Below are positions 19,032 to 51,557 of a DNA stretch of 52,793 nt, piece by piece. The position numbers and the translations under genes are program-made. Source of the stretch: Thermoplasmata archaeon (GTDB lineage: Archaea > Thermoplasmatota > Thermoplasmata > RBG-16-68-12); the NCBI GenBank assembly GCA_036395115.1, contig DASWDU010000047.1, forward strand, positions 1 through 52,793. The letters are read 5' to 3'. Each line of letters opens with the position of its first letter. Within the stretch, counting starts at the first letter, position 1. The notes under the pieces were generated by a model, which saw nothing but the letters and a program-made list of their open reading frames with translations, made no database searches and was not told the origin of the DNA.

Positions 19032-19051
19032 CTACCTCTGTTTAGAGGTAG
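19032..19051. promoter_or_regulatory. Palindrome CTACCTCT-N4-AGAGGTAG, copy 1
   Basis: A perfect inverted repeat with eight-base arms and a GTTT spacer. A second copy with spacer GTTC is at 19325-19346, and the two bracket the small gene at 19084-19311. This copy also lies upstream of the carS promoter. The pair looks like binding sites for one dimeric regulator. Confidence 0.55.
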
Positions 19052-19083
19052 AAATCCGCGGAGCGGCGCATCGTGCAGTGGTC

Positions 19084-19311
19084 TCACGCGGTCCGTTCGA
19101 GCCGCGCGATCCGAGCGGCGAGGTCGGACTGCACCTTCCGGTGGTAGGCGATGAGCTTCTTCGCGGCCTCCCGACGCGACCCGGCTCCGCGCGCCGGTCC
19201 GACGTACTCCTCGCGCCTCTCGCTTCGGCCGTCGCGCCGCTCGTAGTGCCAGAAATACAGGTACTCGTTCCCATCGATCCGTCGCACGCGGAGACCACAG
19301 CCGACCCGCAT
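19084..19311 (-). CDS. Small basic YLYFWHYE-motif protein, palindrome-associated
   Basis: The protein has 75 residues. The core GCGLRVRRIDGNEYLYFWHYE and a later YVGPAR, followed by an Arg/Lys-rich helix, match the protein at 42603-42845 (GCGLTTKEI, YLYFWHYE, YLGSAR). No named family was recognised; the beta-strand then helix layout resembles the arm-type DNA-binding domain at the start of some integrases. Palindromes lie 14-35 bases upstream of its ATG (19325-19346) and just downstream (19032-19051). A self-regulating DNA-binding protein is the simplest inference. Confidence 0.6.
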   Translation of the reverse strand: MRVGCGLRVRRIDGNEYLYFWHYERRDGRSERREEYVGPARGAGSRREAAKKLIAYHRKVQSDLAARIARLERTA

Positions 19312-19324
19312 CCGGGACCTCCGT

Positions 19325-19346
19325 TCTACCTCTGTTCAGAGGTAGA
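19325..19346. promoter_or_regulatory. Palindrome TCTACCTCT-N4-AGAGGTAGA, copy 2
   Basis: A perfect inverted repeat with nine-base arms and a GTTC spacer. It covers positions -14 to -35 relative to the start of the small gene at 19311, where its TATA box would be expected. Occupation by a protein would block transcription of that gene. Confidence 0.6.
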
Positions 19347-19458: not shown

Positions 19459-20160
19459 ATGGACCGTCTCAAGACGTACGTCGAAGGGTTCGACGACGCC
19501 CTCGGCGGCGGCATCCCCCGCGGGTCCGTCGTGCTCGTCGCCGGCACCCCGGGCACGATGAAGACCGCGCTGACCTTCTCGATCCTTTACGAGAACGTCA
19601 GGGCGGGCTCGAAGGCGCTGTACATCTCCCTCGAGGAGAGCCAGGAGGACCTCCGGGCGGCGATGACGGACCTCGGGATGACCGGCCTGGACGACATGGA
19701 GCTGTACGTCCTCGACATCGGCCGGATCCGGCTCGAGCACAAGGACGAGGAGCTGTCGAAGAACTGGCTCGACGTGCTGCAGAAGTACATCGACCAGCGC
19801 GTCCGCGTCAACGGGTTCGACCTCGTCGCCGTCGACAGCCTTGCGGCTTTGTACAGCCTGAGCCACCTCGCGAACCCGCGGCGCGACTTGTTCCACTTCT
19901 TCGGGTTCCTCAAGGCCCTCAAGGCCACGTGCTTCCTGATCTCCGACGTCCCGTCCGGGTCGAACGGCAAGCTCACGGCGTTCGAGGAGGAGTTCCTCGC
20001 CGACGGCATCCTGTCTCTGCGCCACGTCGAGAGGGGCGAGGCGGACGTGCAGCTGCGCCTGCGGTGCGTCAAGATGCGGCGGGCGCGGCACGAGCACGGC
20101 TACTACGCGCTGACGCGGGACGACGGCCGCTTCCGGGTCGCCCGGGCGACGTCACAGTGA
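19459..20160 (+). CDS. KaiC-like RecA-fold ATPase, single domain (1)
   Basis: The 233-residue protein has one KaiC/GvpD-type domain. GFDDALGGGIPRGS leads into the P-loop GTPGTMKT (about 29-36). Next come YISLEES with the catalytic carboxylates, Walker B LVAVDSLAALYSL, and FLADGILSLRHVERG near the end. Such single-domain proteins are abundant in Euryarchaeota and are linked to signalling, not to a circadian clock. It is paralogous to the genes at 21070 and 23754. A TATA box (CTTTATA, 19423-19429) lies about 33 bases upstream of the ATG. The 3' end overlaps the convergent gene at 20152 by nine bases. Confidence 0.85.
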   Translation: MDRLKTYVEGFDDALGGGIPRGSVVLVAGTPGTMKTALTFSILYENVRAGSKALYISLEESQEDLRAAMTDLGMTGLDDMELYVLDIGRIRLEHKDEELSKNWLDVLQKYIDQRVRVNGFDLVAVDSLAALYSLSHLANPRRDLFHFFGFLKALKATCFLISDVPSGSNGKLTAFEEEFLADGILSLRHVERGEADVQLRLRCVKMRRARHEHGYYALTRDDGRFRVARATSQ

Positions 20161-33614: not shown

Positions 33615-34802
33615 TCAGAAGAGGACGACTCGGACAATCTCACCCTTCTCGATCCGGTCGACATCCGCGGGAATCTCGACGTAGCCGTCCGCATGGGCCA
33701 TCGATGTGATCGCGCCGCTCTCCTTGTACGCCGGCACCGCCTGTCCGTCGACGATGCGGACGGTGTGGAACTCGAGGCGACCGATCTTCGAGGCGAGTCG
33801 CATTGCCAACGGCACCTCGATCACGGTTTCCCGCGCGGGCGGCAATCGCGCGATGCGACGGAGCATCGGGGCGAGGAGCACGTAGCCGTTCGACAAGCAC
33901 GAGGTCGGGTTCCCGGGGAGCCCCAGGACCGCCGTCCCATCCACGAGGCCGAGGGCGGTCGGCCGCCCGGGCTTCACCGCGATCCCATGGAACACCAGAT
34001 CGCCCATCGATTCGAGGGCCTCGGCAACGAGGTCTTTCTCGCCCACGGACGAGCCGCCCGAGACGACGACGAGATCGTTTCCGGCCGCTTTCTTCAGCGC
34101 GGTCCGAAGCGTCGCCAGCCGGTCGGGCGCGCGCCCCTCCAGCTTCGGTTCCCCGCCATTTTCCCGAACGACGCCGGCGATTGTGTGCGAGTTGACGTCG
34201 TACACCTGGCCCGCTCGAAGCGACCGACCGAGCGGGACGACCTCGTCGCCCGTGACGAGGATCGAGACGCGTGGCTTCGCGTACAGGCGGACCCTCGCAT
34301 GGCCGATCGCCGCCAGTGCGCCGATTTTCGCGGGGGTGAGGACCTCTCCGGCGTGGACGACGGTGGATCCGCGTTCGACGTCGCTTCCCCGGCGCGAGAC
34401 GTTCTCCCCCGGTTCGACCGATTCGCGCACGGTCACGCGATCCCCATCTCGCTCCGTGTCCTCGATCATCACGACGGCGTCCGCACCCCCTGGCATCGTC
34501 GTACCCGTGGCCACCTTCGTGCATCGGCCCGCGCTCACGACGGCGCGGGGCACGCCATCCGCATGGTGGGTCTCGATGCACCGGAGCGCAACGGGGTGGG
34601 CCGTCCCGGCACGGACCGAATCCTGCGCCCGGACCGCGTATCCATCCATCGCCGCGCGATCGGCAAGGGGCACGTCAATCGCCGAGCGCACATCCTCCGC
34701 GACGACTCGCCGCAACGCGTCAGCGAGTGGCGGCGTCTCGGTGCGCTCGATCGGCCGCACGAGATCCACCGCAATCCGAATCGCTTCGTCCAGGGAAATC
34801 AA
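33615..34802 (-). CDS. moeA: Molybdopterin molybdenumtransferase MoeA
   Basis: The protein has about 395 residues with the MoeA domains in order. An N-terminal domain has DRAAMDGYAV and GTTMPGGADAVVMIE. The MoCF-binding domain has ILVTGDEVV, DLVVVSGGSSVGEKD, and VKPGRPTALG with LGLPGNPTSC. The last domain ends with ITSMAHADGYVEIP. MoeA inserts molybdate into molybdopterin. No ATG fits: the TTG at 34802 or a CTG at 34811 are the candidates, so the start is uncertain. It is co-oriented with moaB (56-base gap). Confidence 0.93.
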   Translation of the reverse strand: MISLDEAIRIAVDLVRPIERTETPPLADALRRVVAEDVRSAIDVPLADRAAMDGYAVRAQDSVRAGTAHPVALRCIETHHADGVPRAVVSAGRCTKVATGTTMPGGADAVVMIEDTERDGDRVTVRESVEPGENVSRRGSDVERGSTVVHAGEVLTPAKIGALAAIGHARVRLYAKPRVSILVTGDEVVPLGRSLRAGQVYDVNSHTIAGVVRENGGEPKLEGRAPDRLATLRTALKKAAGNDLVVVSGGSSVGEKDLVAEALESMGDLVFHGIAVKPGRPTALGLVDGTAVLGLPGNPTSCLSNGYVLLAPMLRRIARLPPARETVIEVPLAMRLASKIGRLEFHTVRIVDGQAVPAYKESGAITSMAHADGYVEIPADVDRIEKGEIVRVVLF

Positions 34803-34858: not shown

Positions 34859-35359
34859 TCAACGCTCCATCACCCCGACCGCATGCCCGAGCTCCGGGAG
34901 GATGAGCTTCTCGATTGCGAGACGACACGCGTCCGGGGAACCGGGGAGACAGAACACGAGCCGGCCGTGGTAGACGCCGGCGACGGCACCGGAGAGCATC
35001 GCGGCGCTTCCGATTGCCTGGTATGACAGCGAGCGGAACAGCTCGCCGAATCCGGGCAACGTCTTGTCGAACGTCGAGAGGAGAGTGGGGATCGTCACGT
35101 CGCGCTTCCCGAGCCCCGTCCCGCCGTTCGTCAGGATGGCATCGCAAGTCCACGACGCTTGCTCGACCGCATCGAGGATCGGCTTCGCTTCGTCCCTGAC
35201 GACGACGTAGAAGAGGACCGAGTGACCGGCGCGGAGCAGGAGGTCTCGGATGAGTCTCCCGGACTCGTCCGTCTCCGTGGTCCGGCTGTCGGACACCGTC
35301 ACGATGCCGCACTTCACGGAGGCCGGCGCGTGTTCTTTGTGCTTCGCGGGGACCGCCAT
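34859..35359 (-). CDS. moaB: Molybdopterin adenylyltransferase (MoaB/MogA family)
   Basis: The 166-residue protein contains the MoCF-binding fold: VKCGIVTVSDSRTTETDESG, CDAILTNGGTGLGKRDVT, and LVFCLPGSPDACRLAIEK. The TNGGTG and DVT elements bind the pterin. It activates molybdopterin with ATP for MoeA. The ATG at 35359 gives a proper N-terminus. A TATA-like CTTTAGA is about 35 bases upstream, and a palindrome of the type also found near moaD lies just beyond it (35412-35431). Confidence 0.9.
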   Translation of the reverse strand: MAVPAKHKEHAPASVKCGIVTVSDSRTTETDESGRLIRDLLLRAGHSVLFYVVVRDEAKPILDAVEQASWTCDAILTNGGTGLGKRDVTIPTLLSTFDKTLPGFGELFRSLSYQAIGSAAMLSGAVAGVYHGRLVFCLPGSPDACRLAIEKLILPELGHAVGVMER

Positions 35360-35411
35360 GGACAGGATGCGCTGAGAAGACCGGCGACGGTCTAAAGGTT
35401 GGCCTTCCAAA

Positions 35412-35431
35412 TTAACCTTGAACAAGGTTAA
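35412..35431. promoter_or_regulatory. Palindrome TTAACCTTG-AA-CAAGGTTAA upstream of moaB
   Basis: This is a perfect inverted repeat with nine-base arms. It lies about 15 bases upstream of the TATA-like box of moaB. Its arms nearly equal those of the palindrome at 42855-42874, which precedes the gene just upstream of moaD. The shared site suggests joint regulation of the molybdopterin genes. Confidence 0.6.
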
Positions 35432-41904: not shown

Positions 41905-42315
41905 CTAGGTCCGGCGCTTCCGGCGGGACGGCGGCCGCCCCGGAGCCGCGGACGATTCGGTCTTCCAGATCGGGACGATCCGCTTGACCTCGTCCATCGC
42001 CCACGCGCAGGCGGCGAACGCCGCGCCCCGATGGGCGGCGGAGCACGCGATGACCACGGAGTCGTCGCCGACCGGCACGCGGCCGACCCGATGGACAATC
42101 GACATCTCGAGGACGCCGAACTTCGACTTCGCTCGATCGGCGAGGGCTGCGAGTGCTTTCTCGGCCATCGGCTCATAGACCTCGTAGTCCAGCGCGCGGA
42201 CGCCGGCGTCGGCCCGCACGGTCCCGAGGAACACGACGACGGCGCCGGCGTCGGCCCGGCGGACGCGGTCCACGACCGACGCCACGTCGATGCGAGACCG
42301 TTGGACCGCGATCAC
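41905..42315 (-). CDS. moaE: Molybdopterin synthase catalytic subunit
   Basis: The 136-residue protein transfers sulfur from MoaD thiocarboxylate to the pterin. MoaE features visible are AGAVVVFLGTVRAD, LDYEVYEPMAEKALAALA, IVHRVGRVPVGDDSVVIAC, and AHRGAAFAACAWAMDEVK, then VPIWKTE. The catalytic Lys is in the last motif. The GTG start overlaps the moaD stop as GTGA (42315-42312). The C-terminus is basic (RPPSRRKRRT). Confidence 0.95.
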   Translation of the reverse strand: MIAVQRSRIDVASVVDRVRRADAGAVVVFLGTVRADAGVRALDYEVYEPMAEKALAALADRAKSKFGVLEMSIVHRVGRVPVGDDSVVIACSAAHRGAAFAACAWAMDEVKRIVPIWKTESSAAPGRPPSRRKRRT

Positions 42316-42563
42316 GTCCCGCCCCCGCTGACGGGCGGCATGACGGCGACCTCGTCGCCGTCGTGCAAGACGACGTCCGGGGAGGCGTAGCTCAGGTTCA
42401 CCGCGAGGAGCATCGCCTCCGTGTGGCCGGCGAGCCGCGGGTACGTCCCCACGAGGGCGTCGACGAGGTCCCGGAGCCGCGCGCCTTCCGGGAGGGTCCA
42501 GGGGAGCGCGCCTTCGCCGGCGATCTCGCGGTACGTCGCGAAGAGCCGGACCCGCACGCGCAC
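42312..42563 (-). CDS. moaD: Molybdopterin synthase sulfur-carrier subunit MoaD
   Basis: This 83-residue beta-grasp protein begins RVRVRLFATYREIAG and ends AVMPPVSGGGT. MoaD and other sulfur carriers normally end in Gly-Gly, which becomes the thiocarboxylate. Here the chain runs on to Gly-Thr, because the stop lies two codons later and overlaps moaE. Processing or a different end would be needed. The GTG at 42563 is 28 bases from a TATA box (42588-42595), so the transcript is leaderless. Confidence 0.85.
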   Translation of the reverse strand: MRVRVRLFATYREIAGEGALPWTLPEGARLRDLVDALVGTYPRLAGHTEAMLLAVNLSYASPDVVLHDGDEVAVMPPVSGGGT

Positions 42564-42602: not shown

Positions 42603-42845
42603 CTACGGCGGAGGGAGCCGCGCGAGGATCTCCGCCCGCCGGCGCCGCACCTCCGCGCCGAGCCGATCAAGGTAGGCGTCGAGGGCCTCGACGAGCCGCT
42701 GCCGCGCCGCCTCGGACCGGGCGGAGCCGAGGTATCGGAACACCTGGACCCGTCGGCCGCCCCGGTCCTCGTAGTGCCAGAAGTAGAGGTAGGGCCGACC
42801 GCGAATCTCCTTCGTCGTCAGGCCACAGCCGAGCTGCACGCCCAC
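42603..42845 (-). CDS. Small YLYFWHYE-motif protein upstream of moaDE
   Basis: This 80-residue protein is a paralogue of the one at 19084-19311: GCGLTTKEIRGRPYLYFWHYE, YLGSARSEAARQRL, and an Arg-rich helix (LGAEVRRRRAEILARL). The conserved strand/turn/helix layout is like a small DNA-binding domain. The gene is on the same strand as moaD, 39 bases upstream of it. A palindrome overlaps its own promoter (42855-42874). This suggests a regulator of moaDE and, through the matching palindrome at 35412, of moaB. The GTG start is the only option. Confidence 0.6.
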   Translation of the reverse strand: MGVQLGCGLTTKEIRGRPYLYFWHYEDRGGRRVQVFRYLGSARSEAARQRLVEALDAYLDRLGAEVRRRRAEILARLPPP

Positions 42846-42854
42846 CGGGATGGC

Positions 42855-42874
42855 TTAACCTTACTTAGGGTTAA
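42855..42874. promoter_or_regulatory. Palindrome TTAACC-N8-GGTTAA at the YLYFWHYE gene promoter
   Basis: The sequence TTAACCTTACTTAGGGTTAA spans -10 to -29 from the GTG at 42845, where a TATA box would sit. It shares TTAACCTT and GGTTAA with the palindrome upstream of moaB (35412-35431). It is likely an operator for a self-repressing protein. Confidence 0.6.
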
Positions 42875-42968: not shown

Positions 42969-44216
42969 TTGGACGTCCTCCTGGTCTCCCTCACCCCTGC
43001 GGTCGAGGAGATCACGGCGCTCCTCGCCTCCGCCGGTCACCGCATCGTCGAGACAATCGTCCAGCGGCGGGACCGCCCGGACGGCCGCACCTTCGTCGGT
43101 CGGGGGAAGCTCGACGAAATCCGACAGCGCGTCGAGACGGGCGGCGTCGACGTCGTGGTGTTCAACGGCGAGCTGCGTCCGACGATGCATCACATCCTCG
43201 AGCGGGACCTCGGCGTCGAGTGCTACGACCGCCTGCGGGTCCTCCTTGAGCTGTTCGCGCAGCGCGCCACGAGCCGGGAAGGCAAGCTGCAGGTCGAACT
43301 CGCGCTGCTGCAGTATGAGGTCCCCCTGCTGCGCGAGTGGATTCACGAAACGGACATCGGCGAGCGACCCGGCTTCATGGCCGGCGGCGCTCAGCGGGTC
43401 GACGCGTACTACGAGACGGTCAAGCGGCGAATCAAGAGGATCCGCGACGAGCTCGGGACGATCCGACGCGAGCGCGACGTGCGGCGGGCCGTGCGCAAGG
43501 ATCGCGGATACCACCTCGTCGCCCTCGCCGGATACGCGAACGCGGGCAAGTCGTCCCTGCTGAATGCCCTGACGGACGAGCACGTCCTCGTCGAAGACCG
43601 AATGTTCTCGACGCTCGCGACGACGACCCGGAGCCTCGTCGGGACCCGCAAGCGGATCCTGCTCACGGACACGATCGGTTTCGTCGACGGGGTTCCGTTC
43701 TGGATGGTCGAGGCGTTCAACGCGACGTTCGAGGAAATCCTCCGGGCGGACCTGATCCTCCTGCTCATCGACGCGGTCGACTCGGACGATGAGATCCGCC
43801 GGAAGGTGCGCCTCGCGGCCCGGACCCTCTTCCCGAACGTGTCCGCCGACGTCGTCGTGCCGATCCTGACGAAGACGGACCTCTTGCCGGAGGCGACGGC
43901 GATGGCGAGAGCCCGGCTCCTCGCGGAATCGGAGTTCCACCGGGCCGCGCTCCCGATCTCCGTGCGGACGGGCCAGGGCCTCCCGGAGCTCCGAGCCGCG
44001 ATCCATCGGGCGTTCGTCTATCCAATCGAACTGCACCTGGTCTTGGTCCAGGACGCCGGCGCGGGCGGGAAACTCCACTGGCTGTACGAGCACACGGAGG
44101 TCGTGTCGGCGGACCACCGCGGGGACCGAATCGATGTCGTCGTCCGGTGCCGGCCTCGGGACCGCGTGACCGCGGAGTCGCTCGGGCGGGTCGTGCTCGC
44201 CCGCGCCGTCGGGTGA
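42969..44216 (+). CDS. hflX: HflX-type ribosome-associated GTPase
   Basis: The 415-residue protein has the HflX N-terminal domain (FVGRGKLDEIRQRV, VVVFNGELRPTMHHILE, VELALLQYEVPLLR), then a coiled segment (about 150-180). The GTPase domain has G1 GYANAGKSSLLN (about 187-198), G2 FSTLATTTRSL, G3 DTIGFVD, and G4 TKTD. HflX splits stalled ribosomes. The TTG at 42969 is about 26 bases after an AAACCCTTTT box, which favours a leaderless start. No hfq or hflKC genes are nearby. Confidence 0.93.
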   Translation: MDVLLVSLTPAVEEITALLASAGHRIVETIVQRRDRPDGRTFVGRGKLDEIRQRVETGGVDVVVFNGELRPTMHHILERDLGVECYDRLRVLLELFAQRATSREGKLQVELALLQYEVPLLREWIHETDIGERPGFMAGGAQRVDAYYETVKRRIKRIRDELGTIRRERDVRRAVRKDRGYHLVALAGYANAGKSSLLNALTDEHVLVEDRMFSTLATTTRSLVGTRKRILLTDTIGFVDGVPFWMVEAFNATFEEILRADLILLLIDAVDSDDEIRRKVRLAARTLFPNVSADVVVPILTKTDLLPEATAMARARLLAESEFHRAALPISVRTGQGLPELRAAIHRAFVYPIELHLVLVQDAGAGGKLHWLYEHTEVVSADHRGDRIDVVVRCRPRDRVTAESLGRVVLARAVG

Positions 44217-46604: not shown

Positions 46605-49600
46605 ATGGAAGAAGTCAAGGTTTCTGAGTCGAAAGCCATCGAGATTGTCGCGGGCGAGCCGGATCCGAAGCTGACCGAGAACGCGCTCCGCGTTCTTCAG
46701 AAACGGTACTTGAAGAAAGACGAAAAGGGCCGCGTCACTGAGACGCCGAGAGAGCTCTTCGCGCGGGTCGCATGGAACCTTGCGCAAGCGGAGCGGCTGT
46801 ATGGCGCGGACGACGCGAAAGTCGGGGAGACCGCGAAAGGTTTCTATCGCCTGATGGCGAATCTCGACTTCCTCCCGAACAGCCCCACGCTGATGAACGC
46901 AGGGCTCGAGTTGCAGTTGCTCTCGGCCTGTTTCGTCCTCCCGGTGGATGACAGCCTCGTCGGAATCTTCGAGGCGTTGAAACAACAGGCTCTGATCCAC
47001 CAAGCTGGCGGGGGAACCGGTTTTGCCTTCTCCAGGCTTCGGCCGAAGGGCGACTTCGTGAAATCGACGATGGGGGTGGCCTCCGGCCCCGTTTCCTTCA
47101 TGAAGATTTTCGACTCGGCGACTCAAACAGTCAAGCAGGGAGGATGCATCTCCGTGGACAGCCTCCTCCGAACGTCAGAGGGACTCAAGCCGCTCGGGAG
47201 ACTCCTGAACAGCCCACCCCTCGGCGAGAACTTCACTCGCGATCGGGTCTTCGATGGAACCGGCTTCTCGCACGCGCTCGTGGCGCAGGACAATGGTCCG
47301 GCGGAGATTTTCTCCGTCGAGACAGAACTCGGTCTCCGGATCGGCGCGACCTACAACCACGCATTTGCCGTCGTCGACGAGAACGGCGAGGTCGTATGGC
47401 GGGAAGCGCAAGATCTCCGAGAGGGCGACTGGCTCGTCATCGTGAAAGGAGGGCACCTCGGGTTCAATCGGTCCCTACCGCCGCTCGGCCCCCAGCACCC
47501 GAACGCTACCCGAATCCGCGTCCCCTCCGAGATGAACGAGGATCTTGCGGAGCTCCTTGGGCTGTACATGGCGGACGGTTGCACCAGTTCCGGCGGGCGC
47601 TTCATCATCACCATCGGGACTGTGGATATCGAGGTCGTGGATCGCATCCGGATCCTCATGGAGAGGAACTTCGGACTCGCCCCGAACCAGATCAAGGAAG
47701 GCGAGGGAGGCGGCTATGTCGACATCCAGTTTCAGTCGCGCGATCTCCTTCGATGGATGGAACGGTTGGGCTGGGTGAAGGGGTATTCCCCGAACGCGTT
47801 CATCCCGGCAGAAGTACTGGGTGGGTCGGCCGACACCGCCCGCGCGTTTCTCCGAGGTCTATTCGAAGGGGACGGCCACATTCACTCGGGAAGCGGGTAT
47901 CCGTGTTTCTCGACCACGTCGGAGCGCCTTGCAATCGAGGCGCAGCAGCTCCTCCTATCCTTGGGGATTGTCGCCCGGCGCGGAGCGATCGCGAGTAGCC
48001 GCCACAATTCCCTCGGCCACCGCCCAGTGCACACGCTCACGATTGTTGACGAGGACAGCGTGCGGACATTCGCGGGGGAAATCGGGTTCGTCTCGGACCG
48101 GAAGCAGGACCACTTGGAACTTGGCCCAAGACCGAAGGTCAACACCTCCGACATCATACCAAACCAGGGCGCGGTCCTGCGGTCGTTGTACACTTTCGTT
48201 GGACGAGGGAGCGGACCCGGCCGTTCTCGGCGTGGCGCCGACCGGAGGCTGTACCGGGCCCTCATGCACTACATCAGCGAGGGACACGCGCGGGCGCTCC
48301 CCCGGAAGCGCCTCCTCGCGTTGATGAAACGGTTCCCGGTGATCGCGGCGAACGACCACCTCCGACAGATGGTGAATCCCTCGCGAGTGTACACTCGCGT
48401 AACTGGCATTCGGCGGGATCACGCGCCGACTGCCGACCTCGAGGTCCCCGGTCCCGCCAGTTTCGTGGCGAACGGCATCCTCGTTCACAACAAGAGGCGG
48501 GGGGCCAACATGGGCATCCTTCGCATCGACCACCCCGATATCCTGGGGTTCATCACTTGCAAGGACCGGACTACAGAAATCACGAATTTTAACATTTCCG
48601 TGGCGATCACGGACAAGTTCATGGAGGCCCTGATGACCGGCACGAAGTACGACCTCGTGAACCCGCGGGACAAGACGGTCGTCGGTCAGCTCGATGCCCG
48701 CGAGGTCCTCGACAAGATTGCGTTCCAAGCATGGAAGAACGGGGAGCCGGGACTCTTCTTCATCGACGAGAACAACCGCCGACAGCCCACGCCGAACGTC
48801 GGAGACATGGAGGCCACGAACCCGTGCGTGACGGGCGACACGCTCGTGTCGACGGAGCGGGGACTCATTCCGATTGCGGACCTCGCGGAACGCTATCCGA
48901 ACGGTGGGATCTCCCTCGTTACGGATCGTCGAGTGCCTGCCGAGGTCGTCACGGAATCGAACGGCATGTTGCTCGCGAGCCGCGACGAGGCGGAACGGGG
49001 AACGCGGCTTGGACCAATGGTGGCCGCTTGGAAGACCGGCGTGAAGCCGGTCTGGCGGATTGCGACGAAGTCCGGGTTTGAGCTCTCGGCGACGGCGGAC
49101 CACAAGGTCCTCACGACGCAAGGATGGATTCCGATCGAAGACCTCATGCCAGAGGTTCACAAGTTGCTGATCCAGTCGGGTGAAGGGAACTTCCCCGGGG
49201 ATCGACATCTTCCATTCGAGCCAGCGAATGTTCACGTCGGCAGGAACGGAAAGACGACAATCCTCAATCTCCCGACCGAATGGTCCCGAGAACTCGGCCT
49301 CGTGCTCGGCTGGCTAGTGGGAGACGGATGGTTGCGGTCCGGCGACAAGAACTGCCGCGTCGGGTTCACGTTCGCGAACAGCGACGCGCCGATGTTTGCC
49401 ACCCTGCGACCGATCCTGAACCGCTGGTATGGTCGCGAGATTCGCGGAGTCAAGCGGGAGAATGGAGTCTACCATCTCTCATACCACTCGCGGTTCTTCG
49501 TCGAATTCTTCGAGAAACTGGGAGTGAAATCGGTTGATGGTGCAGAGAAGGAAGTCCCCCGATCCTTGTTCACTGCTCCCCGCGAAGCCGTGGTTGGATT

Positions 49601-51557
49601 CCTCCAAGCCCTGTTTACCGCAGATGGCACTGTGAGGGATCATCGCAACTGCAACAGCTCTGGAATTGCCTTGACATCGAAGAGCCGCGGACTCCTGCAA
49701 GGTGTGCAGCTCCTTCTCCTTGCTCTCGGAATCCGCTCCCGGATACTGGATCGGAGTCGTGCGCCGCGAGTAGCATTGTTCGAATATCTAGCGAAAGACG
49801 GGAAGCGCCGAGAGTATGGCTCGGATGGTGTGTTGTGCGAACTGTTCATTTTCGGGGAGTCGAGGCGGCGCTTCGAACAGTCCGTTGGCTTTCTCGATGA
49901 GAAGCAAGCGCAGCTCTCTCACGTCCGATACCCGCGGTTTTACGAGACCAAGTTCGAAGACATTCTATCTGGGAAGCAACTCGTGGGGGATCGCCAGGTT
50001 TTCGATCTCACGGAAGCTGCTTCTCACTCGATGATCTGCAATGGGATCGTCGTTCGACAGTGCGGCGAACAGCCGCTCTTGCCCTACGAATCGTGCAACC
50101 TCGGATCCATCGACCTGCAGCGACACATGAAACACAACGCACGGGGGAAGTGGGAGCTCGACTGGAAGAAGCTTGAGCGCTCAATCCGCACATCGGTCCG
50201 CATGCTCGACGATGTCATCGACATGAACGCCTACCCGGTCAAGGAGATTGAGGAAATGACGAAGGCCACCCGCAAGATCGGCCTTGGCGTCATGGGCTTC
50301 GCGCGCATGCTGTTCATGCTCGAGGTCCCTTACGACTCCAAAGAGGGAGTCGAATGGGGCCGCAAGATCATGCAATCTATTCAGGAAACAGGATATAATG
50401 AGAGTGCGAAGCTCGCCGAGGAACGCGGCGTATACCCGGCGTGGGAGGGAAGCCGCCACGAGGGGAAGGGGCTGCGCCTCCGCAATTCGTACGTCACGAC
50501 GGTCGCTCCGACGGGTACCCTCTCGATGATCGCGGACACCTCTGGCGGCTGTGAGCCCGAGTTCAGCCTGATATGGTACAAGCGGGTCATGGACGGCGAG
50601 GAGCTCCCGTACTTCCTCGACTACTTCGAAGAGGTCGCGAAGCGCGAGGGCTTCTGGCGGGAGGATCTCGTGAAGAAGATTCTCGACAACCACGGATCCC
50701 CGCGAGGCCTCAGGGATGTCCCCGAGAAGTGGCAGCGGGTCTTCGCCGTGGCCCACGACGTCGCGCCGGAGTGGCACGTGCGGATGCAGGCCGCGTTCCA
50801 GGACTACTGTGATGCCGCGGTGAGCAAAACGATCAACATGCCGCGGGAGGCGACCGTCGAGGACGTTAAGAAGGCGTATCTCCTGGCGTACGAGTTGCAC
50901 TGTAAGGGCATCACGGTGTACCGCGACGGTTCCCGAGAGGACCAAGTCCTGAACATCGGCGTCGCCGAATCGGAGAAGCCGAAAGAGGTCCGCGTCGAGG
51001 TCCCGGCGGAGCCCGTCGCCCTGCGGCCCCGCGCCCGCCCCGACGTGATCACGGGCCGCACGCAGAAGATCCTCACCGGATACGGCGCCCTGTACGTCAC
51101 GGTCAACGAGGACGAGAAGGGCCTGTTCGAGGTCTTCGCGCAGATCGGCCGTGGGGGCGGCTACACCGCTTCCTTCACGGAAGGGATCGCGCGGCTCGTG
51201 TCCCTGTGCCTGCGGTCCGGCGTGCCGGTCGACGAGATCATCGACCAGCTCGAAGGCATCCGCAGCCCGCGGATCGCCGTCGACCACGGCGAGCGCGTGT
51301 ACTCGATCCCCGACGCGATTGCGAAGGCGATCAAGCGGCACATGGGAATGCACAAGGTCGGGGTGCAGCAGGCCGTCGAGACGTTCGACGAACTCGGCGG
51401 AGCCGTCGAGACCGATGTCGAGCTGGAGAAGGAGTCGCGCGACGCGGCCGAGTTGCTGCGGAAAGGCTTGAACCCGGAATGCCCGGAGTGCGGCAAGCCC
51501 CTCGTATTCGAGGAAGGCTGCGTGAAGTGCCACTCGTGCGGCTACTCCGAGTGTTGA
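46605..51557 (+). CDS. nrdJ: Adenosylcobalamin-dependent ribonucleotide reductase with two inteins
   Basis: The 1650-residue precursor is a class II reductase of about 789 residues plus inteins of 449 and 412. The host has FLPNSPTLMNAG, SACFVLPVDDS with the first redox Cys, KRRGANMGIL, the active-site NPCGEQPLLPYESCNLGS, and the phosphate-binding VTTVAPTGTLSMIADTSGGCEPEF. It ends with a zinc ribbon CPECG...CVKCHSCGYSEC. It reduces ribonucleotides to deoxyribonucleotides with B12. Intein 1 (47145-48491) splits KQGG/KRRGANMG. Intein 2 (48825-50060) sits directly before the active-site Cys of NPCGEQ. Both must be removed for activity. Confidence 0.95.
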   Translation: MEEVKVSESKAIEIVAGEPDPKLTENALRVLQKRYLKKDEKGRVTETPRELFARVAWNLAQAERLYGADDAKVGETAKGFYRLMANLDFLPNSPTLMNAGLELQLLSACFVLPVDDSLVGIFEALKQQALIHQAGGGTGFAFSRLRPKGDFVKSTMGVASGPVSFMKIFDSATQTVKQGGCISVDSLLRTSEGLKPLGRLLNSPPLGENFTRDRVFDGTGFSHALVAQDNGPAEIFSVETELGLRIGATYNHAFAVVDENGEVVWREAQDLREGDWLVIVKGGHLGFNRSLPPLGPQHPNATRIRVPSEMNEDLAELLGLYMADGCTSSGGRFIITIGTVDIEVVDRIRILMERNFGLAPNQIKEGEGGGYVDIQFQSRDLLRWMERLGWVKGYSPNAFIPAEVLGGSADTARAFLRGLFEGDGHIHSGSGYPCFSTTSERLAIEAQQLLLSLGIVARRGAIASSRHNSLGHRPVHTLTIVDEDSVRTFAGEIGFVSDRKQDHLELGPRPKVNTSDIIPNQGAVLRSLYTFVGRGSGPGRSRRGADRRLYRALMHYISEGHARALPRKRLLALMKRFPVIAANDHLRQMVNPSRVYTRVTGIRRDHAPTADLEVPGPASFVANGILVHNKRRGANMGILRIDHPDILGFITCKDRTTEITNFNISVAITDKFMEALMTGTKYDLVNPRDKTVVGQLDAREVLDKIAFQAWKNGEPGLFFIDENNRRQPTPNVGDMEATNPCVTGDTLVSTERGLIPIADLAERYPNGGISLVTDRRVPAEVVTESNGMLLASRDEAERGTRLGPMVAAWKTGVKPVWRIATKSGFELSATADHKVLTTQGWIPIEDLMPEVHKLLIQSGEGNFPGDRHLPFEPANVHVGRNGKTTILNLPTEWSRELGLVLGWLVGDGWLRSGDKNCRVGFTFANSDAPMFATLRPILNRWYGREIRGVKRENGVYHLSYHSRFFVEFFEKLGVKSVDGAEKEVPRSLFTAPREAVVGFLQALFTADGTVRDHRNCNSSGIALTSKSRGLLQGVQLLLLALGIRSRILDRSRAPRVALFEYLAKDGKRREYGSDGVLCELFIFGESRRRFEQSVGFLDEKQAQLSHVRYPRFYETKFEDILSGKQLVGDRQVFDLTEAASHSMICNGIVVRQCGEQPLLPYESCNLGSIDLQRHMKHNARGKWELDWKKLERSIRTSVRMLDDVIDMNAYPVKEIEEMTKATRKIGLGVMGFARMLFMLEVPYDSKEGVEWGRKIMQSIQETGYNESAKLAEERGVYPAWEGSRHEGKGLRLRNSYVTTVAPTGTLSMIADTSGGCEPEFSLIWYKRVMDGEELPYFLDYFEEVAKREGFWREDLVKKILDNHGSPRGLRDVPEKWQRVFAVAHDVAPEWHVRMQAAFQDYCDAAVSKTINMPREATVEDVKKAYLLAYELHCKGITVYRDGSREDQVLNIGVAESEKPKEVRVEVPAEPVALRPRARPDVITGRTQKILTGYGALYVTVNEDEKGLFEVFAQIGRGGGYTASFTEGIARLVSLCLRSGVPVDEIIDQLEGIRSPRIAVDHGERVYSIPDAIAKAIKRHMGMHKVGVQQAVETFDELGGAVETDVELEKESRDAAELLRKGLNPECPECGKPLVFEEGCVKCHSCGYSEC
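47145..48491 (+). mobile_element. Intein 1 of nrdJ with LAGLIDADG endonuclease; +1 residue is Lys
   Basis: The 449-residue intein begins CISVDSLLR (block A), has ATYNHAFAV (block B, with T-x-x-H), the two endonuclease motifs LLGLYMADG and FLRGLFEGDG, and ends FVANGILVHN (blocks F and G). The His-Asn end is canonical. The next extein residue is Lys (HN then KRRGANMG), where splicing normally needs Cys, Ser or Thr. The host motif around it is intact. The endonuclease looks complete, so it may still be mobile. Confidence 0.85.
48825..50060 (+). mobile_element. Intein 2 of nrdJ with LAGLIDADG endonuclease; ends Arg-Gln
   Basis: The 412-residue intein begins CVTGDTLVSTE (block A), has ATADHKVLTT (block B), endonuclease motifs LVLGWLVGDGWL and GFLQALFTADGTV, and ends SMICNGIVVRQ. 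The usual His-Asn end is replaced by Arg-Gln. The +1 residue is Cys, which is also the radical-bearing active-site Cys of the reductase. Inteins ending in Gln are known, for example in an iridovirus reductase. The lack of the penultimate His is less common. Confidence 0.88.

Follow-up and report, generated by a model that had tools for sequence, protein, structure and literature searches.

A lineage-restricted family of small, probably palindrome-binding autoregulatory proteins in Thermoplasmata, with a moa-type member that appears to be a global regulator

Small proteins encoded by one order of Thermoplasmata appear, from sequence comparison, to form a previously undescribed, lineage-restricted family of probable palindrome-binding autoregulators. 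Two members of the family are encoded in a 52,793-nucleotide contig of a Thermoplasmata archaeon (DASWDU010000047.1, assembly GCA_036395115.1; hereafter the window), one of which, the moa-type (class A) member, adjoins molybdopterin genes (Table 1). In the explanation that we favor with considerable confidence, the members are self-repressors acting through palindromes and the moa-type member would also be a global regulator, most likely an activator. This explanation draws on the family, its subfamily-specific palindromes and conserved promoter sites, all read from sequence, and on a modeled fold, from which we infer binding, dimerization and regulation.

Table 1. Features of the window discussed in the text (feature, position, strand, basis or remark).
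Feature	Position	Strand	Basis or remark
moeA (Pfam MoeA)	33615..34775	-	3' of moaB
moaB (Pfam MoCF_biosynth)	34859..35359	-	Pfam match
BRE/TATA-like element AACCTTTAGAC	35390..35400	-	11 bp downstream of moaB operator
Target operator (putative) TTAACCTTGAACAAGGTTAA, 5' of moaB	35412..35431		pattern search
moaE (Pfam MoaE)	41905..42315	-	same strand as moaD and regulator
moaD (ThiS family, Pfam)	42312..42563	-	39 bp 3' of regulator gene
Small regulator gene, moa-type (class A) subfamily	42603..42839	-	ORF and homologue alignment
Regulator's own operator (putative), TTAACCTTACTTAGGGTTAA; TTAACCCTAAGTAAGGTTAA on - strand	42855..42874		pattern search
hflX-like GTPase	42969..44216	+	divergent from regulator across common operator
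Second copy of class E operator, 3' of gene	19033..19050		about 71 bp before CarS-like gene
Second family member (class E subfamily)	19084..19311	-	paralogue and profile searches
Own operator (putative) of class E member, TACCTCTGTTCAGAGGTA	19327..19344		differs from moa-type palindrome

The reading frame of the moa-type gene is open across 42603-42845 and its product has 80 aa; GTG 42839 (V/M-Q-L-G-C-G) is more likely than 42845 to be the start because homologues open with M-Q-[IV]-G-C-G in the alignment. The initial annotation had linked this gene to two similar palindromes, and both palindromes and the gene are real. They are the sole two of their kind in the window, as it had stated: TTAACC-N8-GGTTAA finds no third with 3 mismatches allowed, and an exact TTAACCTT-N(0-8)-AAGGTTAA occurred in 0/100 shuffles. 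Their placement at molybdopterin genes is correct for moaB-moeA and for regulator-moaDE, but the second site is shared with hflX, from which the regulator diverges, the palindrome lying between the two genes in a layout kept across the genus. The adjoining moaD is probably co-transcribed with the regulator gene, and the same adjacency is seen in L024, L106, L109, L111, L112 and L147. The operator at moaB is kept in at least 5 genomes, and its BRE/TATA-like element is kept in the moaB promoters of other species. Elsewhere in the window, 46605-51557 holds a ribonucleotide-reductase-like ORF of 1650 aa with seeming intein-like insertions, as judged by eye.

The small protein has 8 paralogues within its own 2.40-Mb genome and more than 100 homologues, all from one Thermoplasmata order. 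A profile search of 300 genomes from the class found members in 28, every one in that order, and a scan of genome contigs matched solely Thermoplasmata or Euryarchaeota metagenome-assembled genomes (MAGs), many with depth-tagged, soil-type sample names. Ca. Angelarchaeales (RBG-16-68-12), a clade of order rank, has been described from soils of this kind (PMC9038741); it is probably the order that holds the family, and would include the source genome.

In the family alignment, G-C-G close to the N-terminus and Y-x-Y-F-W are among the invariant residues. The fold predicted by AlphaFold2 (mean pLDDT 93) is beta-beta-beta-long alpha, with a three-stranded antiparallel beta sheet and a long C-terminal helix. 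Sequence searches of Pfam, NCBIfam and PDB gave no convincing match, and neither these nor a fold search found a recognized DNA-binding domain, which counts against the favored explanation; the best PDB sequence match, to a designed protein of helical repeats at E 0.003, aligns the C-terminal helix alone, and Foldseek against two libraries returned no significant solved or viral structure (best E among the PDB matches listed, 0.1). No description of the family was found in the open-access literature. Viral origin was rejected, as there was no phage match; one viral-contig match (L294, 28% identity), which has neither the YxYFW motif nor a palindrome, was taken as chance.

The modeled beta-beta-beta-alpha order is that of the AP2/ERF and integrase arm-binding beta-sheet domains. 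The small protein resembles these also in having its class-specific residues on strands 1 and 3, and differs in its long helix; no integrase arm-type or AP2 domain was matched in Pfam or among the Foldseek matches listed (best E 0.1). For DUF6788 (PF20586), a similar stretch, PYLYKYWWE..GR..AYVG, is present in one protein (L293). In an hhalign comparison of single sequences, A1 against one DUF6788 protein gave a probability of 1.2% and P 0.04, DUF6788 had no match in the source genome, and a plasmid search returned a single distant homologue, not enough to build a profile from. DUF6788 was therefore set aside as a remote relative, the stretch being suggestive but not significant with one sequence.

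Palindromes upstream of the small genes are shared across the family and follow its subdivisions. A palindrome lies within the last 100 bp upstream in 92% of 107 distinct members; dinucleotide shuffles give 6%, and a set of 385 other upstream regions 16%. Counting against the favored explanation, it is degenerate or missing in L019, L110, L125, L131, L181 and L186. The comparison nevertheless lends strong support to the core of the initial annotation, namely that small, apparently autoregulated proteins linked to palindromes make up a new family. About ten 22-bp palindrome types share a common outline, among them GTTAACCTTAAGTAAGGTTAAC, GTTATAGTTAAATAACTATAAC, GTTATCGTTAAATAACGATAAC, TATACCTCTACTTAGAGGTATA, TCTACCTCTGAACAGAGGTAGA, GTTACCCTTAAGTAAGGGTAAC and GTTATCTATAAGTATAGATAAC. 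Across a tree of 103 proteins, built from few columns and with many unresolved forks, palindrome type changes 10 times when classes D and E are pooled, against a minimum of 8 and a shuffled mean of 52.9. Within each class the palindrome sits at an almost fixed distance ahead of the start codon. Class D genes keep an identical palindrome type in several different neighborhoods, so the palindrome travels with the protein and not with the place. Together the sequence patterns make a strong statistical case for a link between protein and operator.

Residues at positions 7, 8 and 34 are uniform within a class and vary from class to class, with a weaker pattern at 10 and 32; all of them map to strands 1 and 3 in the model. 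With some ten independent classes to compare, the pattern is a hint that residues of these two strands may determine specificity. A TTTCGCACACCCC-like stretch also recurs 5' of the own-gene operators in L020, L021, L022 and L040.

Sites of the moa-type (TTAACC) palindrome were located with the pattern TTAACCTT-N4-AAGGTTAA at no more than 1 mismatch, yielding 8 sites in the source genome (2.4 Mb) and 120 across 19 genus genomes (about 2-16 per genome), with 0 matches for a reversed-pattern control. Two of the 8 lie at moaB-moeA and regulator-moaDE (the latter shared with hflX), and the eighth, at the regulator gene, has one mismatch; Ku-ligD, mutY, dph6 and a KaiC-like ATPase are among the other genes with sites in the source genome. 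Clustering of the genes adjoining these sites across genomes revealed recurrent orthologous targets: KaiC-like ATPases, hflX (via the regulator's own site), pterin-4a-carbinolamine dehydratase, mutY, D-aminoacylase, dph6, moaB, Ku (Ku-ligD), creatininase, enoyl-CoA hydratase, a UbiX-like flavoprotein, and a gene that we take to be cyclic-2,3-diphosphoglycerate synthetase-like (cPGS-like), a fragment of which has no Pfam match. The site at C5:143376 (TTAACCCCGAACCGGGTTAA) was excluded from the regulon because its arms differ. The palindrome is thus non-random in the genome, as the initial annotation required of it, and marks about a dozen conserved promoters. Most conserved sites fall outside the molybdopterin pathway, and the specificity for that pathway first proposed does not hold; moaB-moeA and moaDE appear to be genuine, yet minority, targets.

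Among genomes of the order, sites occur in 19/19 that have the TTAACC-type protein and in 7/18 that do not, 5 of these 7 being less than 90% complete. The co-occurrence (Fisher p 4e-5, with kinship of the genomes ignored) is supportive evidence and is taken no further because the genomes are related. A neighboring genus (G083, G129, G207) carries other members of the family but lacks both the class A protein and the sites. Two further observations count against the favored explanation: the incomplete genus genomes G134, G187, G195 and G203 have sites with no class A protein detected, and target sites have centers AAAC, GAAC and GAAT as opposed to AAGT at most own-gene sites. The distribution of its sites suggests that the moa-type member controls genes for DNA repair, cofactors and metabolism as well as the molybdopterin genes, and it is best seen as a candidate global regulator.

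The position of the sites suggests how such control may be exerted. In the promoters of moaB, dph6, Ku and pterin dehydratase, the palindrome is followed after 8-20 bp, mostly 10-15, by a BRE/TATA-like block (AACCTTTAGAC, AAGCCTTTT, AAATCGTTAAG); the spacing is 21-29 bp for the cPGS-like gene, and at other targets the block is farther away or was not found by the simple pattern used. At the regulator's own gene, 14-15 bp separate the near edge of the palindrome from the start codon, too few for a separate core promoter to fit. Activators in archaea tend to occupy sites upstream of the BRE, and repressors tend to cover the promoter or sit downstream of it (PMC5512572); from this pattern, together with the site positions, we infer self-repression and target activation. 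The small protein would be a single-domain, sequence-specific DNA-binding regulator, probably a dimer, each subfamily recognizing its own ~22-bp palindrome and acting as a repressor of its own gene from a position over or next to the core promoter. In addition, the moa-type member would run a global regulon, most likely activating its targets from sites that in most cases precede a BRE/TATA-like element, and might sense a signal, for example via the invariant Cys of the GCG motif. EarA of Methanococcus maripaludis and Ptr2 of M. jannaschii, activators that bind just upstream of BRE/TATA (PMC5512572), are alike in the position of their sites at target promoters, but the small protein has no Pfam match, and the sites described here are palindromes of 20-22 bp, with a different one for each paralogue.

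Some classes carry an additional operator. Classes C, D, E, G and K often have one copy at each gene end, the 3' copy being present in 31/34 of class D, 9/13 of class C and 6/10 of class E, and in none of classes A and B. The class D copy overlaps the stop codon, mostly T-S-T-stop (e.g. CAT ACC TCT ACT TAG, HTST-stop, in L114, L129, L138, L148 and others). Several class C copies (L060, L061, L065, L067 and others) lie between convergent regulator and RNase Z-like genes, and so are not promoter sites for the neighbor. The 3' operators of classes C, D and E are unaccounted for by simple promoter repression and count against the favored explanation; looping might connect the two operators. In distant members from other families of the order, 2-4 operators lie upstream at intervals of about 60-140 bp (e.g. 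L081-L085). In the window, the class E member (19033-19344 with its operators) adjoins a CarS-like gene on one side; on the other, a KaiC/RadA-like ATPase gene near 19459 (+) runs divergently from it. At L271 (G000:C25:66792) a lone class D operator is flanked by thiolase and radical-SAM-like genes; in other species this place holds an operator-gene-operator cassette.

Four other explanations were weighed. That the moa-type protein is a dedicated regulator of the molybdopterin pathway agrees with the 2/8 sites at moaB-moeA and regulator-moaDE in the source genome, the moaB sites kept in at least 5 genomes, the moaD adjacency in several, and the frequency of pterin-4a-carbinolamine dehydratase as a target among relatives. 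Most conserved sites are nevertheless at unrelated genes, including Ku-ligD, mutY, dph6, creatininase and KaiC-like ATPases, and also D-aminoacylase, cPGS-like, enoyl-CoA hydratase and UbiX-like genes; because the sites are not restricted to molybdopterin genes, a molybdopterin-only reading is contradicted and we judge it quite improbable. The small genes could instead be mobile or selfish cassettes encoding a domesticated transposase-like DNA-binding domain, the palindromes being REPIN- or MITE-like element ends. Operator copies at both gene ends, the class D cassettes found at several locations (with a lone operator at one in the source genome) and the short DUF6788-like stretch would fit, and REP/REPIN sequences with their RAYT proteins likewise pair a protein gene with its own palindrome, at times on both sides. 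The small protein, at 80 aa, has by contrast no nuclease or other catalytic domain; its palindromes are few (8 in 2.4 Mb) and at conserved promoters, unlike the many dispersed intergenic copies of REP/REPIN. Isolated 20-bp sites occupy orthologous promoters, several at near-constant spacing from the BRE/TATA-like element, the 3' copy is missing from classes A and B, and the DUF6788 comparison is not significant, so that a cassette origin also seems a poor prospect.

A separate, unlinked regulator might bind the palindromes, with the small proteins being ordinary regulon members, since the small proteins are themselves putative binders. About ten palindromes are each linked to one protein clade, however, and the class D palindrome stays 5' of its gene at several locations, a pattern for which one outside regulator cannot account; this makes such an arrangement very improbable. 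Finally, control could operate at the RNA level, with the palindrome forming a hairpin within the transcript's 5' leader: the class D own site ends 4-7 bases ahead of the start codon and could be partly transcribed. At many targets the palindrome is upstream of the BRE/TATA-like element and would therefore not be transcribed there, against the hairpin reading, whose chance we regard as close to negligible.

The favored explanation, a family of self-repressors with a moa-type global regulator, may extend to a more specific one, to which we would give somewhat less than an even chance: that the proteins constitute a new order-specific type of DNA-binding domain, comprising about ten parallel regulators whose distinct palindromes are read mainly by two strands, with some genes clamped between operators. 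If true, this would be an archaeal transcription-factor family missed by current domain libraries. Its members, more than 100 in number and with about ten specificities, would offer a natural protein-operator series from which a recognition code may be readable, and would provide a concrete regulon for a soil and sediment Thermoplasmata order known here from metagenome-assembled genomes alone.
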